Positions 3,592 through 23,756 of a stretch of DNA of 36,600 nt are shown here, in pieces. The notes under the pieces were generated by a model. The model was given only the letters and a program-made list of their open reading frames with translations, made no database searches and had not been told where the DNA came from. This stretch comes from a virus: positions 1 to 36,600 of the IMG/VR virus record IMGVR_UViG_3300023171_000006, one strand, 5' to 3'. A program made the translations under genes and the position numbers. The number at the start of each line of letters is the position of its first letter. The stretch's first letter is position 1.

Positions 3592-4960
3592 GTCAGTCAA
3601 CGACCCTACTGTTGATACACTAATTCTTTTTGGTACTGTCGGTACGGGTAAGACTGATGTTGCAGCACATATCGTTATTTCTATTTGTCAGACGTTCCCT
3701 AAAACTTACTGGCCTGTATTCCGTCAGAACCTCACAACTGCTAAAAAGACAGTCATACCTTCTTACGAGGTAATGCTTGAGAGAATGAACCTCATTGAGG
3801 GTGAGGACTTTAGTTTCAACCGAACTGACTACGTTATCAAGTTCAAGAATGGCTCAGTCATTGCATTTACAGAAGCAGACATCACGAAGGATCGCCAAGG
3901 TCGTAAGATTAAAGGTATCAACTCATCCGGTAACCATATTGACGAGGGTGACGAACTAAATGAGACAATGCTTGTAACTGCTACGTCCCGTAAAGGTAGG
4001 CGAAACGAACAGGGACAACCAAGCTTGTCCATTCATACTCTTAACCCAACAGACCATCCTTATTACACCGCTCTATACAACTCGTTCAAGTTTGAAGGTG
4101 AAAAAGACGAGTCAGGACGTATCATTCCACCACTACCTAAAGGCGTAAGGTGTATTGAGTTTACGGTTGAGGACTCTTGGCAGACGCAGCAAGACATTGA
4201 TGCTCTTATGACCAACCCGAAGTGGTGGGTTGAACGCTACATGAATAACAACTGGAAGTATAAGGACGAAGAAAAAACTATCTTTAAATCCCACCTCTTT
4301 GCGAAGGCACGAACTGATAAACTTATATCGGGTAGACGTACAGCTGGTTACGACGTTGCTGACGAAGGACGCGACAGAGCGGGAGTTGCCGATTGGGAGA
4401 ACTTCACATTGTTTGATATTCAGATAACGAAAGAGGCTGACCAAAAGGTAAAGACTGAGGATCAAGCAGATTGGTTAATCAAACACTCCGACGACTTGGA
4501 GATTGGCTATGAGAATGTGGCTGTAGACGGTGTGGGCGTTGGTGTTGGTTTGCTATCTTCGGCAAGAGTGAAGGGTGTTGACTTTGCCGTATTTAAGTCA
4601 GGCTACTCGCCAGACCCATACCTGACATTCGAGGATAGGCCGCTCTCAAGAGACGATGCTGAACGCAATAGTGAGATTGTATCTTTCAATAACCTCCGGT
4701 CACAAGTGGCATATCTATTAGCTATGGGTATGGAGAAGGGCGTTGTGAAGATTCTTGAGAGTTGCCCTTACTTGGATGACTTTACCAGTGAGGCTCAACA
4801 GCACCACAACGAGACAAACGACAAAGTATTCAAGCTAGAGTCGAAAGATAAGATTAAAGAACGCACCGGTAAGTCGCCAGACATATTCGATATGGTTCTC
4901 ATGGGATTCTATAAGCAACTCAAGAAGGAACATGTTATTGCATATGGTGGCTTGATGTAG
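3554..4960 (+). CDS. terL: Terminase large subunit
   Basis: 468 aa. ATP-driven DNA translocase and nuclease of the packaging motor. The Walker A is GTVGTGKT at residues 27-34. The acidic segment 'NHIDEGDEL' (about residues 127-135) fits Walker B. The C-terminal RNase H-like nuclease starts with 'AGYDVADEGRDRAG' (about residue 265) and continues with 'VAVDGVGVGVGL'. Length is normal for phages of this size. The start overlaps the small subunit; the nearest Shine-Dalgarno-like stretch is weak, which fits coupled translation. Confidence 0.95.
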   Translation: MLKLKPKQRLAVESVNDPTVDTLILFGTVGTGKTDVAAHIVISICQTFPKTYWPVFRQNLTTAKKTVIPSYEVMLERMNLIEGEDFSFNRTDYVIKFKNGSVIAFTEADITKDRQGRKIKGINSSGNHIDEGDELNETMLVTATSRKGRRNEQGQPSLSIHTLNPTDHPYYTALYNSFKFEGEKDESGRIIPPLPKGVRCIEFTVEDSWQTQQDIDALMTNPKWWVERYMNNNWKYKDEEKTIFKSHLFAKARTDKLISGRRTAGYDVADEGRDRAGVADWENFTLFDIQITKEADQKVKTEDQADWLIKHSDDLEIGYENVAVDGVGVGVGLLSSARVKGVDFAVFKSGYSPDPYLTFEDRPLSRDDAERNSEIVSFNNLRSQVAYLLAMGMEKGVVKILESCPYLDDFTSEAQQHHNETNDKVFKLESKDKIKERTGKSPDIFDMVLMGFYKQLKKEHVIAYGGLM

Positions 4961-5002: not shown

Positions 5003-5188
5003 GTGAATAGCCTAAAAAAGTTCATTAAGAACATAAAAGACAACTTCGCAGAGTACTACACTCTCCTCATGATAGCGGTAGCCACCCCTTTAGCGGTTGG
5101 GTTACTCTTTGGTTTTGTATGGGGACTTTTGCTTTCATTCGTACTTCAAGCTTTGATTGGTGTTTTCTACATCCGAGGTAGCAAGTGA
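5003..5188 (+). CDS. Small membrane protein between terminase and portal
   Basis: 61 aa starting at GTG 5003, with AAAGGA upstream (4989-4994). A basic N-terminus (MNSLKKFIKNIKDN) is followed by two hydrophobic segments (about residues 20-37 and 40-57) that can form a helical hairpin in the membrane. It overlaps the portal start by 4 nt. A membrane protein at this position is unusual. Holin-like or superinfection-exclusion roles are possible but nothing in the sequence decides. Confidence 0.7.
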   Translation: MNSLKKFIKNIKDNFAEYYTLLMIAVATPLAVGLLFGFVWGLLLSFVLQALIGVFYIRGSK

Positions 5189-6633
5189 TTCTCGGTATAG
5201 CACTAAAAGGCGCAAAGGCTCAGATTAACTTAGTCGGTGCTCCTTCTTTTGCTCAAGTTAATCCATACGGACTTTACAATCACTTCAAGTCTGACGAGTA
5301 CGCAAGTCACTATCCTAACGTCCGACCTATTACTAACGAGTTCATGCAGATTCTTCCGTATGCGATTGATAAGAATGGTAAGCCAGTACCTCACGCAGTA
5401 ATCGACGCACTCTATCACCCTAACCGTCGTGACAGCCTACCAATGTTCCTTGAGAAGCTTGGGGTGTCTGTACTCGCATTGAACTATACGTACCTTCTTG
5501 TATGGCGACGTGAAGGCGGCAAGGCTATGCCGGGTGGAGACTTTGGTTTCAAGGGCACAAACGTGGCAGGGTTTACATTCCTCGAGCGTCCGGGTGTTGA
5601 ATACCGTGATGGTAAAATCTATTACAAGATTGGTGCTCAAGAGTTCTCCGAAGATGAAGTTATTGCTATTCCGGGCGGAGCAAAGCCTGATGACCTTTAT
5701 GCTGGTTACTCTCCGGCTCTATCGGCTGCTAAGTGGGCAACGCTTGATGGATACATTGCTGACTTCCAAAACGGATTCTTCCAAAACAATGCCATTCCTG
5801 CTGGTGTATTCAAGGTTGCCGCAACTACCCCAACCGAGTACACAGACATGGTGGAGAAACTCAAGGAACGTCACCAAGGCGCAGGAAACAATAACAACGT
5901 TTCTTACACCCACGTACCTATTGACCCACAAGGCAAGCTCGCACCGGCTCAAATCGAGTGGATTCCATTCGCACAGAGCAACAAAGAGATTGACTTTGAA
6001 CCACTCCTCAAGCATGTGGACGACCGATTGTCTGAGAGCTATGGTGTTTCAGGAATCATCAAGGGTGTTGACTCAAACGCAACCTACAATAATGCCGAAG
6101 TATCTGAGGCTGGCTTCGCCAAACGTGCAGTCAAGCCATTGGCACTTCGTATATACTCACAAATCACCCACGAACTTAACCGTATTACTGGTGGCTTTGG
6201 CGCTGCTATTGCTTTCAAGTACGAAATCCCTGCTGTTTCCGATGCCGAGTTAGTTAAGTCAAAGACAAAACGTGAAGAAGTACTCAGTATTAAAGAGTTA
6301 ATCGACCTAGGGTATAGTCTCGACTCTGCCGTTGATGCACTGCAACTGTCCCAAAGCTATAAGCTACTCAAGGCTGGCACAGCCCCAGCGGTCATTAAGA
6401 ACGACAAGCCAGAGGTGGATGAGGGGGAAGAGGTAGACAACTCACCCAACCCTGCACTTATTGATGGTGTTACTCCTGTGAACTCTGTAGAGTATGAACG
6501 CCATTGTAAGGAGTGCGATCGATTCCTAGGAATTACGAAAGACAAAAGCTACTCCGATATGGATAAGTGCTCAAATACCGCATGTAAAATACTAGACGTA
6601 CCTATTCTAAAGGAGATACAAAATGCCAACTAA
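5185..6633 (+). CDS. Portal protein (HK97-type)
   Basis: 482 aa, GTG start overlapping the previous stop (GTGA). It forms the dodecameric ring at the capsid vertex. Recognisable segments include 'HPNRRDSLPMFLEKLGVSVLALNYTYLL', 'AGYSPALSAAKWATLDGYIADFQNGFFQNNAIPAG' and 'LSESYGVSGIIKGVDSNATYNNAEVSEAGF', which match HK97-type portals. The C-terminal 45 residues are unusual: C-x2-C ('HCKEC') then C-x4-C ('KCSNTAC'), a possible zinc-binding knuckle added after the usual end. It is followed by an overlapping gene at 6623. Confidence 0.9.
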   Translation: MILGIALKGAKAQINLVGAPSFAQVNPYGLYNHFKSDEYASHYPNVRPITNEFMQILPYAIDKNGKPVPHAVIDALYHPNRRDSLPMFLEKLGVSVLALNYTYLLVWRREGGKAMPGGDFGFKGTNVAGFTFLERPGVEYRDGKIYYKIGAQEFSEDEVIAIPGGAKPDDLYAGYSPALSAAKWATLDGYIADFQNGFFQNNAIPAGVFKVAATTPTEYTDMVEKLKERHQGAGNNNNVSYTHVPIDPQGKLAPAQIEWIPFAQSNKEIDFEPLLKHVDDRLSESYGVSGIIKGVDSNATYNNAEVSEAGFAKRAVKPLALRIYSQITHELNRITGGFGAAIAFKYEIPAVSDAELVKSKTKREEVLSIKELIDLGYSLDSAVDALQLSQSYKLLKAGTAPAVIKNDKPEVDEGEEVDNSPNPALIDGVTPVNSVEYERHCKECDRFLGITKDKSYSDMDKCSNTACKILDVPILKEIQNAN

Positions 6634-21037: not shown

Positions 21038-21238
21038 ATGAAGAATAAATTGTATGACATCCTCAAGTGGGTAGCAATCACAGTACTACCAGCAGTTAAC
21101 GCCTTTTGGGTCACTGTAGCGAACGCGTGGGGGCTTAACTATGTTGAACCCGTATCGATTACTATCGCGGCTCTAAACGCGCTCCTAGGGCTTCTGGTGG
21201 GTGTTTCAGCCGTGAATTACGCCAAGAAAAACAAGTAG
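21038..21238 (+). CDS. Holin (two-span, Dp-1/r1t-like)
   Basis: 66 aa. Short basic N-terminus (MKNKLYDILKW), two hydrophobic segments (about 11-30 and 39-58) and a basic tail (KKNK), the normal layout of class II holins; 'YDILKWVAITVLPAVNAFW' matches Dp-1-type holins. AAGGAGAG (21024-21031) precedes the ATG. It is the last gene before a strong terminator. Confidence 0.8.
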   Translation: MKNKLYDILKWVAITVLPAVNAFWVTVANAWGLNYVEPVSITIAALNALLGLLVGVSAVNYAKKNK

Positions 21239-21252
21239 ACTACCTACACATA

Positions 21253-21288
21253 AAAATAATCCCCTTCCGGTTGGTTGGGGATTATTTT
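21253..21288. terminator. Bidirectional terminator after lysis genes
   Basis: 12-bp stem AAAATAATCCCC/GGGGATTATTTT with a 12-nt loop. It has T-rich 3' sides on both strands, so it can end the late + transcript and any minus-strand RNA arriving from the 21289-21960 region. Confidence 0.9.
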
Positions 21289-21751
21289 GGGTAGTGTGCC
21301 GATGCATTATCTTAAACACCGTCACACTTGGATTGTAGCATAGTATTCAAAACAGGGGAGAGGGCGATAGGTATTTACGGTACTACCCTATTTACGTCCT
21401 ATCGTTGGGTGCGTCAGCGCAGTAGTACATGTCGACTTTCACCTGCAATTTATCCCTCACATCTGTCTTCAATCTCTATATATACAAGGTACTAGTAGCG
21501 AAGGTGTTTACGCACCAGCTCCATCGAAGCCCGAAAGTATCACTACCAGTACCCTATATACATAGAGTGATTAAGCGTGGATGCTAGTAGCAAAACGGGC
21601 TAATAGGGGGACTTTTTAGATCTCTACCCGTGCCTTCTCGGTGCCTGGGTTTCATACCCGATTATCAAACTCTTTCTACTGGATTTTTACCAGAATTGCT
21701 CACTGCTAAATTACTACTAGCACTCACGCTTAATGTGTTACAGACAAGGAA

Positions 21752-21877
21752 GAGCGGGCAAGGATTTGACAGCAGCCGTAGCCAAACCTGTTTCAATCAC
21801 CTTGCATGATGCCAGACTCGCCGCTGTCGCACTGGTCATCTAAATACAGCTAGCGTCTACCTATTCCGCCACCGCTC
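21752..21877 (-). ncRNA. tRNA-Leu-like domain with enlarged loops (RNA2 head)
   Basis: Read on the minus strand, it opens with GAGCGG, then the canonical Leu D-arm segment GGCGGAATAGGTAGACGC, and closes with CCTTGCCCGCTC. GAGCGG pairs with CCGCTC. An anticodon-stem-like GCTGT/ACAGC encloses 18 nt instead of 7. The T-stem CAAGG/CCTTG encloses 36 nt, starting T and ending TCAAAT; joined, these would give the normal T-loop TTCAAAT. Flanks GTTACAGACAA (21892-21882) and TTGTCTGTAAC (21747-21737) pair over 11 bp. It is not a normal tRNA gene. It may be an intron-bearing tRNA, a degenerate tRNA or a tRNA mimic. Confidence 0.6.
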
Positions 21878-21932
21878 ATCTTTGTCTGTAACCTATATTG
21901 TAAAGGAACTATACAGCTTCGTAACTGGTTGT

Positions 21933-21960
21933 ATTATACCACAAGTTAAATAGGCTGCAA
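21933..21960 (-). promoter_or_regulatory. Minus-strand promoter for RNA2
   Basis: TTGCAG (21960-21955), 16-nt spacer, then extended -10 TGG-TATAAT (TATAAT 21938-21933). The -35 sits in the 3' arm of a GGCTGC/GCAGCC hairpin (21953-21976) that may end the upstream minus-strand RNA. Confidence 0.7.
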
Positions 21961-22549
21961 GTTTAAGTCGGCAGCCCACGACCCTTCTCACCTCGGAACG
22001 GGGAAGTGTTCTAAGGGGAGGCGCTATATACGCCATAGCAGCGAGATAATCTCACACTCCTTTCAACGGCGAATGGGGTGTTCTCCTTCCTAGAGTGGGA
22101 CTCTGGCTACAGTATACTCCTATTTTTAGACATGTTTAAACAACCCCTTTTCCCTGCTGTAAATAGTGGGGGAGTTATGTCAATCAAGCAATCCCTGAGT
22201 AAGTTCGGATAACAACTTCTTGCATTTTCTTGTGATTTAACAACAGAGAGAACAACAATGATTGTGAATTAAAGGTATGTAAGAGTACGCCATACTTTTC
22301 GTGGGTAGACACTAAACTACCGTATCACCTAGAAGCGGCCTAGGGCATGATTCTCTGCCACACGTCAATGACGCACTCACAGATACCTTCAATCGTTATA
22401 GACAGAAAAGAGAGCGTAGGACAGGCAGACTTGAACTGCAACCTGTTCGGTGATGCATCCTATAGCACTAACGAACTGTTCTCAAGCAATATTGAACTAC
22501 TGCGCCCTCATCACTATCTATAACGTTTGAACAAACTATTTGTTAAGGT
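21947..22549 (-). ncRNA. RNA1: large structured candidate ncRNA with tRNA-like head
   Basis: There is no protein gene in this stretch. A minus-strand promoter (22556-22584) would start RNA near 22549. First comes an AACAAA/TTTGTT hairpin, then a tRNA-like domain (22410-22509) closed by a 12-bp outer helix. Next is a three-armed fold (22322-22386: closing GTATC/GATAC, arms CCTAG/CTAGG, GGCA/TGCC and CGTC/GACG), and then several hairpins including GGCG/CGCC near 22020-22034 and a GAGA/TCTC stem near 22041-22055. The 3' end is uncertain; the GGCTGC/GCAGCC hairpin followed by TATTTAAC at 21953-21976 is my best guess. The overall plan matches RNA2. Confidence 0.5.
22410..22509 (-). ncRNA. tRNA-like domain with enlarged anticodon loop (RNA1 head)
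   Basis: Minus strand: GAGGGCGCAG pairs with CTACGCTCTC over 10 positions (one G-U, one C-A). TA then a D-stem GTTC/GAAC, an anticodon-stem-like GTTCG/CGAAC enclosing 22 nt rather than 7, and a T-arm GCAG-TTCAAGT-CTGC with a normal T-loop. Outer flanks CTATCTATAACG (22514-22525 on +) and CGTTATAGACAG (22394-22405 on +) form a 12-bp helix with one G-U. The flanks align base by base with those of the RNA2 domain, so the two precursors are homologous. No anticodon can be assigned. Confidence 0.55.
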
Positions 22550-22555
22550 ATCTAA

Positions 22556-22584
22556 ATAATATTCCATTCTACTCATCAGTACAA
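22556..22584 (-). promoter_or_regulatory. Minus-strand promoter for RNA1
   Basis: TTGTAC (22584-22579), 17-nt spacer, TATTAT (22561-22556). Spacing is ideal for a sigma-70-type promoter. Confidence 0.55.
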
Positions 22585-22681
22585 TGCGAGCTTTACGATA
22601 GCCTAAAACGTTGAGCCATAGGTCGCATCATTTCTTTATACTCGCATCTGCACCTTAATGGTCAACAGCTCCCCACGAGTG

Positions 22682-22709
22682 TTGCATAAATATACACCTG
22701 TGCTATACT
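22682..22709 (+). promoter_or_regulatory. Promoter of a ~40-nt + strand RNA
   Basis: TTGCAT (22682-22687), 16-nt spacer, extended -10 TGC-TATACT (TATACT 22704-22709). An intrinsic terminator follows within about 40 nt. Confidence 0.65.
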
Positions 22710-22715
22710 AAAGAC

Positions 22716-22756
22716 AGCAAGAAGGTCAGCCCGATTCGTAAAGAGTCGGGTTTTTC
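22716..22756 (+). ncRNA. Very short + strand RNA ending in intrinsic terminator
   Basis: The promoter at 22682-22709 and the terminator CCCGATTC/GAGTCGGG (22730-22750, loop GTAAA, then TTTTT) leave an RNA of about 40 nt. Its only unpaired part is AGCAAGAAGGTCA. The 12-mer GCAAGAAGGTCA recurs at 22783-22794 just downstream. It may be a small regulatory RNA, an abortive or attenuated transcript, or an anti-terminated leader for genes from 23181. Confidence 0.5.
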
Positions 22757-22760
22757 TATT
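22730..22760 (+). terminator. Intrinsic terminator
   Basis: 8-bp stem CCCGATTC/GAGTCGGG (one G-U), loop GTAAA, followed by TTTTTCTATTT. Confidence 0.85.
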
Positions 22761-22831
22761 TATACCGCCCTATTCAACTTTCGCAAGAAGGTCAAATAGT
22801 TATATTCATATTAGCACACGATCACCAAATA

Positions 22832-22861
22832 AAATAGCCCCATCCATACTTGGGGCTATTT
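22832..22861. terminator. Bidirectional terminator
   Basis: 10-bp stem AAATAGCCCC/GGGGCTATTT, 10-nt loop. The minus-strand side is followed by TTTATTTGG, so it is best suited to end the minus-strand RNA from 22996. Confidence 0.8.
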
Positions 22862-22996
22862 GAGTTCAGGTAGTTTATTGCCACCCTGCTCGTGAGAGCC
22901 GTAACCGAACTTAATTGAACGGTTACAAGGACTAGGTAGTGTAACCTAGTGATGTTTGCTATATTCCGTACGAGGTGCGATACACAAAGTGTATAT
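22832..22996 (-). ncRNA. ncRNA-B: ~165-nt hairpin-rich minus-strand RNA
   Basis: The promoter at 23003-23030 and the terminator at 22832-22861 define the unit. It contains in order ATACAC/GTGTAT (22980-22994), ACTAGGT/ACCTAGT (22931-22950), GTAACCG/CGGTTAC (22901-22926) and GCTC/GAGC (22888-22899). Four clean hairpins between a promoter and terminator, with no ORF, support a real structured RNA. Role unknown; a decoy or regulator are possibilities. Confidence 0.6.
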
Positions 22997-23002
22997 GCTT
23001 TG

Positions 23003-23030
23003 ATAATACCACTTGCAGGATTAAATACAA
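23003..23030 (-). promoter_or_regulatory. Minus-strand promoter for ncRNA-B
   Basis: TTGTAT (23030-23025), 16-nt spacer, extended -10 TGG-TATTAT (23008-23003). Confidence 0.6.
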
Positions 23031-23032
23031 GT

Positions 23033-23100
23033 ACAAAAGAAACAGCGTACCGGGTGAGTAGTACGCTGCTTGGTCACTAGTTAAGAAAGGCGAGTGACCT
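23033..23100 (-). ncRNA. ncRNA-A: ~70-nt minus-strand RNA, two hairpins
   Basis: Starts about 23100 from the divergent promoter. Hairpin 1 is GGTCACT/AGTGACC (23072-23099). Hairpin 2 is CAGCGTAC/GTACGCTG (23043-23068) followed on the minus strand by TTTCTTTTG, an intrinsic terminator. Hairpin 1 is also followed by TTTTG on the + strand, so it could stop + strand read-through just before the early promoter. Confidence 0.6.
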
Positions 23101-23105
23101 TTTGT

Positions 23106-23135
23106 AGTATAACACACGACACCCTTGCATCACAA
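23106..23135 (-). promoter_or_regulatory. Divergent minus-strand promoter for ncRNA-A
   Basis: TTGTGA (23135-23130), 18-nt spacer, extended -10 TGT-TATACT (23111-23106). The -35 overlaps both the -35 and the CACAAGC element of the opposing early promoter, so the two should compete or be co-regulated. Confidence 0.6.
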
Positions 23136-23153
23136 GCTAGATAGTGCTACAAT
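23125..23153 (+). promoter_or_regulatory. Early promoter with CACAAGCTAGATAG operator-like element
   Basis: TTGCAT (23125-23130), 17-nt spacer, extended -10 TGC-TACAAT (23148-23153). The spacer begins with CACAAGCTAGATAG (23131-23144). The same element is in the promoters at 27472 and (inverted) 28511. The leader AGCTAAAAGAAAGGC is nearly repeated after the 28511 promoter. Confidence 0.75.
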
Positions 23154-23180
23154 AGAAACAAGCTAAAAGAAAGGCAACAA

Positions 23181-23756
23181 ATGACAGAACAACTAACAAC
23201 CCAAGAACTTGCGGTCGTAAACAAGACGATTCAAAAGAAAAAGCTGACAGAGCTTACATACAAATCTGTTCTTAGTATGCAGCCACCAGCTAAAATTGTC
23301 AGACACCACGATTTTGGTAAATTCGACTACCTACCCATTACAGCAGTGGAACGTCTCCTAGACGGCTTATTTGACGGCTGGACACCAGAAATCCTGCGAG
23401 AAGGTTCAGTAGTTAATGGATTCTATGTTGTCGTTCGTTTGAAGGCAAAGATTCCGCAATCAGACAAGTACCTAGTAGCAGACGGAATCGGCTTTGCTGA
23501 GTTCCAAACCTCAAAAGGAGAGAGTCCTACTGACTTTACAAAACTAATGCCTAGTGCAGGAGTACTTGCCATACCTCGTGCAAAAACAGAGGCTATCAAG
23601 AACGCCGCTAAGTCGTTTGGTAACTTGTTCGGTCGTAACCTTGCACGTAACGACGATAACTTTATCGAAGAAGCCGAAGTAGTTGATGCTTCACGAAGCA
23701 AAATTGCCAACACGTTGAATCAGGCGGAGACACCAAGTGAACCAAAAGACTCCTAG
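23181..23756 (+). CDS. Single-strand annealing protein, Rad52/Sak-like
   Basis: 191 aa. It pairs complementary single strands in phage recombination with the neighbouring exonuclease. The conserved block is 'FDYLPITAVERLLDGLFDGWTPEIL', then 'YVVVRLKAKIP...DGIGF' and 'AIKNAAKSFGNLFGRNLARNDD', the pattern of phage Rad52-type annealing proteins; the last 30 residues are a disordered polar tail. AAAGGC precedes the ATG. It is first in the early operon. Confidence 0.8.
   Translation: MTEQLTTQELAVVNKTIQKKKLTELTYKSVLSMQPPAKIVRHHDFGKFDYLPITAVERLLDGLFDGWTPEILREGSVVNGFYVVVRLKAKIPQSDKYLVADGIGFAEFQTSKGESPTDFTKLMPSAGVLAIPRAKTEAIKNAAKSFGNLFGRNLARNDDNFIEEAEVVDASRSKIANTLNQAETPSEPKDS

Follow-up and report, generated by a model that had tools for sequence, protein, structure and literature searches.

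The DNA analysed here (the window) is a 36.6 kb stretch of an IMG/VR virus record in which terminase, portal and tail genes are followed by a holin (21038-21238), and then by a single-strand annealing protein (from 23181), an exonuclease, a DNA methyltransferase and NinG, all encoded on the + strand. A GDP-mannose 4,6-dehydratase-like protein is encoded immediately ahead of the terminase genes (1690-2724, +), and no helicase, primase, polymerase or RepA was recognised in the early region. Between the holin and annealing protein genes (21238-23181) there is no ORF of at least 60 aa on either strand, and Rfam at gathering scores and ARAGORN returned nothing there. An earlier note on this DNA had described 21289-23180 as lacking a credible protein gene and its minus strand as bearing large structured RNAs, and we agree on both counts. 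At relaxed thresholds Rfam gave chance-level matches alone in the gene-free region, and those to Xoo2, snoZ182 and rliE were discarded as far below their respective cut-offs; the Xoo2 sRNA match (26.6 bits, cut-off 45; 23036-23117, minus strand) lies over a terminator-like hairpin and is probably due to chance. GC skew gave no origin signal.

Two large RNAs, RNA1 and RNA2, are predicted on the minus strand of this region (Table 1). RNA2 extends farther 5' than the unit drawn previously and does not open with the tRNA-like head: its start is near 22800, where a leader hairpin precedes the pseudoknotted core. This core, which lies upstream of the tRNA-like domain and outside the coordinates of the earlier note, is what defines the RNA, and not the tRNA-like domain. 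The 5' end is placed by a -10 like element (TAATAT, 22813-22808) that is collinear with sense promoters located 154-173 nt upstream of the core in relatives, and the 3' end by the conserved 3' core. A strong terminator had been proposed at the 3' end, but no canonical U-rich terminator was found there. The folding energy of RNA2 is only modestly unusual (z = -2.4), which by itself would suit a chance structure or relic, and RNA2 is therefore established by comparison and not by its folding energy.

Table 1. Features of the gene-free region and its divergent neighbour, in window coordinates.
Feature	Position	Strand	Basis
RNA1, ~672 nt	21254..21926	-	promoter, fold, signature, tRNA-Leu-like motif
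P1 of RNA1, tRNA-Leu-like module, T-loop with insert	21737..21892	-	GTGGCGGAATAGGTAGACGC motif; tRNA model silent
RNA2, large structured RNA, ~670 nt	22135..22801	-	both ends inferred
3' core, TCAGGGATTGCTT...AACTCCCC...AAAAGGGG	22131..22202	-	conserved in 17 members; blastn with L002
P0 3' strand, within AACTCCCC	22174-22169	-	3' core
P2, long peripheral helix, GATTGAAGGTATCTGTGAG/CTCTTACATACCTTTAATT	22267..22394	-	conserved with L002; varied in L032, L041, L049, L050
P1, GTTATAGATAG/CTGTCTATAAC enclosing a cloverleaf-like fold (RNA2 head of the earlier note)	22395..22524	-	fold
Conserved 5' core	22576..22680	-	R1 model match and covariation
P0 5' strand, GGGGAG	22669..22674	-	compensated variants in L044, L045
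Promoter of small antisense RNA, TTGCAT-16-TATACT	22682..22709	+	conserved TTGCAT/TTGCAC-16/17-TATAAT-type sites in relatives
Predicted small antisense RNA, ~42 nt	22716..22757	+	promoter, terminator; same layout in 11 further members
5' seed of small RNA, GCAAGAAGGTCA (X2)	22717-22728	+	direct repeat
Intrinsic terminator of small RNA	22728-22752	+	sequence
X1, TGACCTTCTTGC in leader hairpin, inferred target of small RNA	22783..22794	-	direct repeat; hairpin fold
Promoter of Rad52-type gene, TTGCAT-17-TACAAT	23125-23153	+	sequence
Rad52-type single-strand annealing protein gene, divergent neighbour	23181..23756	+	Pfam PF04098, E 8e-5

A search with the annealing protein yielded four closely related phages, one of which (L002) has four noncoding DNA blocks in common with 22136-22614 by blastn, and patterns taken from these blocks led stepwise to further contigs and then to genomes of bacteria (Antrihabitans, Cryobacterium algoricola, Arthrobacter cavernae and one MAG). 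The cultured strains Cryobacterium algoricola MDB2-B and Arthrobacter cavernae PO-11 carry loci L049 and L050, respectively. With chance matches removed, about 20 other phage or prophage loci have a real noncoding match; those hosts that can be named are Actinomycetota, and the host of the window itself is not among them. Pattern matches in L007, L014-L016, L018-L023, L025-L028, L047, L051 and L052 were rejected as lying in coding sequence or being unrelated. Rfam has no entry for any of the scanned loci, at gathering or at relaxed thresholds, blastn of six loci against INPHARED phages and PLSDB plasmids gave nothing relevant, the exonuclease gave no alignment against GTDB genomes, and we found no published description of the RNA family. 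A covariance model (R1) was also run over another set of some 1080 genomes, sampled evenly from the orders or phylum of the hosts; it met the known members alone, and the RNA is therefore sporadic. Transcripts across the class would range from roughly 300 to 1400 nt. Two divergent members, L042 (2880-2980) and L046, have the hairpin AGTTAT-TATCGTAA-AATAACT and are not found by R1.

The core has the same order on the RNA strand in every member: six bases forming the 5' side of helix alpha, GGGGAG, Pa, Pb, the 3' side of alpha within the Pb loop, UAUAAA, the closing strands of Pb and Pa, CUCAACGUUUU, Pc (a five-pair hairpin around AUCGUAA) and finally GUACUGA. The window has the alpha pseudoknot, the P0 strand GGGGAG, Pa, Pb, CUCAACGUUUU, the Pc hairpin with its AUCGUAA loop, and GUACUGA. 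Alpha crosses both Pa and Pb, and the core is therefore a pseudoknot, which is closed when the RNA 3' end, UCAGGGAAUGCUU...AACUCCCC, pairs back onto GGGGAG to form P0 (GGGGAG with CUCCCC). In all members the CUCCCC at the 3' end has up to three possible partner strands: GGGGAG on the 5' side, GGGAGU downstream and, in some members, also an internal GGGGAGUU. This choice of partners suggests a conformational switch or a domain swap.

The members, including the training sequences of R1, were gathered with motifs that include part of the core, and conservation of those motifs is therefore not independent evidence; the covarying positions, except within Pc, lie outside the search patterns. We segmented the core by hand in 17 members and tested alpha on 15 of them; we counted 13 different versions of it, in which 84 of 89 pairs are standard, compared with 58.5 in partner shuffles. 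In a MAFFT alignment of 12 sequences from which the window was left out, the four core helices, including the crossing helix alpha, are paired in 93.9% of cells, and 15 of the 21 core pairs have changes on both sides. Double-change cells number 61 (shuffled controls, 19.6; slid controls, 2-9), and covariation scores 0.686, compared with 0.250 shuffled and at most 0.102 slid. R1, built from the same 12 sequences, matches the window at 22680-22576 with 63.6 bits (E 8.3e-11). The closing helix P0 also covaries, with both strands changed in L044 (GGAGAG/CTCTCC) and L045 (GAGGAG/CTCCTC), and the earlier proposal that pairing is kept by compensating changes was right. This covariation refutes a chance structure or relic, which is further opposed by some 20 independent loci, conserved promoters and compensating changes in the seeds described below, and which we regard as extremely improbable. 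From these comparisons we take the RNA class, which is absent from Rfam, to be real and covariation-supported, and the anatomy of core, pseudoknot, P0 and linked small-RNA cassette to be near-certain.

That cassette, which the earlier note missed, consists of a small-RNA promoter and terminator upstream of the core, with the promoter -35 box adjoining helix alpha of the large RNA. The antisense promoter is present in 12 of the 17 members, each time with a terminator, and the arrangement predicts a small RNA of about 42 nt whose 5' end is free. The first 11-16 nt of this RNA are present twice, once in its own template (X2) and once in the leader hairpin (X1), about 65-80 nt farther upstream in the large-RNA leader. 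Such X1/X2 repeats of 11-16 nt occur in 11 of 17 members, compared with a maximum of 10 in swapped partners and shuffles, and in the window they are the sole direct repeat of at least 11 nt at a spacing of 60-95 nt. The X sequences are phage-specific and present in two copies only per genome in the nine of these 11 genomes that were searched, with no third copy in those genomes checkable with a specific repeat.

A second group (L031, L033, L034, L038, L039, L048 and L050) has a seed that is an inverted copy of X1, 14-15 nt long, and among near-identical members X1 and seed have changed together (GCATCTATCTTCA/TGAAGATAGATGC, GCATCTATGTTCA/TGAACATAGATGC, GCAACTATCTTCA/TGAAGATAGTTGC). In the three of these that were examined (L034, L048 and L050) there is no antisense promoter of the first-group type, and a terminator-like hairpin lies on the large-RNA strand directly before the core; L034 and L048 also have a promoter-like site upstream of the seed. 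Because two opposite arrangements keep complementarity, and because the changes compensate, seed-X1 pairing is taken to be a selected feature, and we infer that it acts between molecules. In L005 the leader and small-RNA cassette are kept and the core is absent; a weak R1 match in the L005 contig (E 0.15) was discarded as lying outside its RNA locus. By annealing protein the closest relatives of the window are L003 and L004. Both retain the cassette and the direct X repeats (18 nt in L003, 2711-2818; 16 nt in L004, 4538-4630), after which comes a large RNA that cannot be recognised as that of the other members. As L005, L003 and L004 are all without a recognisable core, the core is evidently not needed in all cases.

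The tRNA-like domain emphasised previously lies within P1, which sits in the middle of RNA2, starts with GTTATAGAY...GTCTATAAC and is dispensable in relatives. In the window P1 contains a cloverleaf-like fold. At the same place L002 has a plain hairpin, L005 a 128-aa ORF (5032-5418, minus strand; the protein has no Pfam match), L031 a tRNA-like fold and L034 some 230 nt that are structured in another way; L017 has no insert. P2 is similarly variable: L034 and its relatives have a tRNA-Leu-like module (GTGGCGGAATAGGTAGACGC) there, and L041 has an 87-aa ORF (4396-4659, +). These ORFs within P1 and P2 of L005 and L041 recall self-splicing introns, which have ORFs in their loops. Given that the contents of P1 and P2 vary among relatives, we view the tRNA-like heads as interchangeable limbs. 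The case for tRNA-like domains is weak in the window and depends on relatives, in that L005 has a recognised tRNA fold (38.6 bits, on the same strand as its large RNA) and P1 of L031 scores 28.1 bits with the tRNA model, just under the cut-off of 29. In the window ARAGORN recognises no tRNA and the Rfam tRNA model (RF00005) is silent even at E<=10. The ARAGORN searches gave no tRNA genes, and tRNA modules are missing from most members.

RNA1 is flanked by a promoter (TTGCAG-16-TATAAT, 21960-21933, minus strand) and by a terminator hairpin of 12 bp with a U-run at its 3' end (21284-21254), and its fold is very stable (z = -10.4). It comprises the P1-adjacent signature (CTTTACAATATAGGTTACAGAC at 21905), P1 with a tRNA-Leu-like module, P2, a 28-pair P3, and P4, and the core is missing. 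The tRNA-Leu-like motif at 21872 is common to RNA1 and six other loci. The flanks of the RNA1 and RNA2 P1 helices are homologous (GTTACAGAC...GTCTGTAAC and GTTATAGAT...GTCTATAAC), confirming the earlier observation that the two units share a related helix with aligning flanks. Relatives repeat the signature of CTTNACAAWWTRG...GTTAYAGAY followed by GTCTATAAC, for which a Markov simulation expects 0.0 occurrences per window. We read RNA1 as a core-less paralogue of RNA2, like the RNA of L005.

The size, pseudoknots, phage context and modular tRNA-like inserts would all fit a trans-acting scaffold of the GOLLD/ROOL type, that is, an abundant late RNA that multimerises and carries peripheral tRNA-like cargo or modules. 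GOLLD is reported with tRNAs in a linker, and GOLLD and ROOL both form cages (PMC12286853); the partners available to CUCCCC would make domain swapping possible. However, the best GOLLD match (RF02032, a model that covers the conserved 3' region) is 5.4 bits, far from the cut-off of 150 and on the wrong strand. ROOL (RF03087) gives no match at E<=10 in 18 contigs, a result to be read from the model alone as the control genomes were silent too. The core is a different one, most members lack tRNA modules, and we found no description of dedicated antisense control for GOLLD or ROOL to set beside the cassette present here. We therefore consider a scaffold role rather unlikely. The earlier view that the RNA is neither GOLLD nor ROOL is sustained, and a new RNA class is likely, with the Rfam scans negative and no match of the GOLLD, ROOL and tRNA models to the window.

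In lytic-type contigs the RNA is nearly the sole element on the opposite strand, positioned where the late genes have ended and the early genes are about to begin. The gene that diverges from it encodes a single-strand annealing protein, the superfamily of which differs among phages (ERF, RecT or Rad52); other members lie near a Replic_Relax gene. The early regions of G004 and G006 have no ORF of at least 250 aa. In the early regions of the two RecT phages (L083, 6526-8529; L085, 10853-12940) a PD-(D/E)XK nuclease is fused to an FtsK/HerA-type ATPase (667-695 aa), and a gene for a Cpn60-type chaperonin (L086, 5526-7076) lies on one of the phage contigs that carry the RNA (L040). Genes follow the RNA in the same direction in L030, L043/L049, L044 (including terminase) and L050, as expected of a cis-acting leader or antiterminator RNA for a same-strand downstream operon. 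The RNA has its own 3' core, however, and there is no such operon in the window, where RNA2 is followed by RNA1 alone and then by convergent lysis genes, or in most lytic-type contigs, and we find a cis-acting leader improbable.

Integration is probable for some of the prophage members (L048, whose contig is 1.7 Mb long, and G015, which has a serine recombinase). Such locations would suit an RNA-based immunity or early-gene switch: in lysogens, or when a cell is superinfected, the leader of the large transcript would be silenced by the small RNA, and the large RNA would be needed for lytic development and not as an origin. The P4 CI and P1/P7 C4 RNAs are short phage RNAs of this kind, with a seed complementary to a leader target and a specificity that differs between phages. 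Here too the phage-specific seeds diversify with X1 complementarity kept, and the small-RNA promoter looks constitutive. The target is nonetheless a large noncoding RNA, and the small RNA ends at a terminator and is not a processed leader. In the window no gene follows RNA2, and no repressor-type genes were recognised. We regard an immunity switch as rather unlikely.

We favour replication control ahead of both an immunity switch and a scaffold, and propose, tentatively and as close to an even call, that RNA2 is an antisense-controlled structured RNA for phage replication control, analogous to that of ColE1. The layout fits ColE1 logic and the position fits the origins of cluster A mycobacteriophages, and it is for these reasons that we prefer it. 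RNA2 belongs to a new, widely scattered class of noncoding actinophage RNAs read against the neighbouring operons, with a pseudoknotted core closed by P0 and with P1 and P2 tolerating tRNA-like, hairpin or ORF inserts. The small RNA, a 5' seed plus terminator, would pair with X1 in the nascent leader, so that the large RNA is either not made or misfolds; control would then depend on dosage and be specific to the strain. Once folded, the large RNA would act positively on replication of the phage (or prophage) DNA, and the simplest form of this would be an origin or primer transcript like those of ColE1 (RNA II/RNA I) and the cluster A origins. Against replication control, small proteins with no assigned function could initiate replication, the core is not detectably related to the mycobacteriophage origin RNAs, which lack the X repeats, ParA is missing from the contigs, deletion of the Alma origin spared lytic growth (PMC7157519), L005, L003 and L004 have no recognisable core, and some of the prophages are probably integrated.

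Slightly more tentatively, the class may be viewed as an entirely new kind of phage RNA machine in which a pseudoknotted core with interchangeable tRNA-like, hairpin or ORF limbs, gated by a small RNA with a fast-diversifying, phage-specific seed, forms an RNA-only determinant of replication or immunity, paired with the phage's ERF, RecT or Rad52 protein. A covariation-supported structured RNA class outside Rfam joins a very short list of large phage RNAs, and the exchange of limbs around a fixed core is relevant to the way in which large RNAs acquire domains. The class differs from GOLLD and ROOL in apparently bringing its own regulator; as the target of this regulator is evident from the sequence, seed swaps can test the function directly. 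If replication control is correct, RNA-only control would extend from one mycobacteriophage cluster to other phages of Actinomycetota, and new plasmid origins may become available.

The origins of cluster A mycobacteriophages with RNA-based replication (RedRock, Alma, Gladiator, LadyBird and Et2Brutus) occupy a region of roughly 600 bp that expresses a reverse-strand noncoding RNA. The region is both required and enough for replication, stable lysogeny depends on it, and it causes incompatibility; deletion of the Alma origin left lytic growth normal (PMC7157519). The likeness lies in an actinophage RNA that comes from a gene-free region where the late genes end and is read against its neighbours, and in the window a reverse-strand noncoding RNA is indeed found at the junction after the late genes, with no Rep protein recognised; incompatibility is known for the mycobacteriophages. 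The differences are that R1 gives nothing above 10 bits with the RedRock, Alma and Gladiator origins with filters off, that the X repeats are absent from the mycobacteriophage origin RNAs, and that the parABS system of that group is absent here (no ParA, PF13614, in 21 of 21 contigs, with controls positive). In the Gladiator origin (L098, 1715-1790, minus strand) the stretch CCAACGCGGTCGTCGCCGGTTAGAGCGGCAGCAGTACTCATG loosely resembles CTCAACGTTTTAGACTATCGTAAAGTCTGCATTGTACTGATG of Pc, a lead to remote kinship without model support.

With ColE1 RNA II and RNA I the system shares a long structured transcript and a short divergent antisense RNA, which by sequence has its own promoter and terminator and is directed against the 5' leader of the long RNA, with specificity residing in a short loop sequence. 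The two have no sequence relation, and the small RNA is about 42 nt here compared with about 108 nt, one group here encodes it on the large-RNA strand, the pseudoknotted core with modular inserts is particular to the phage RNA, and its primer role is our proposal. As an RNA family it has no known relatives, and as a system it is a variant of antisense-controlled RNA.
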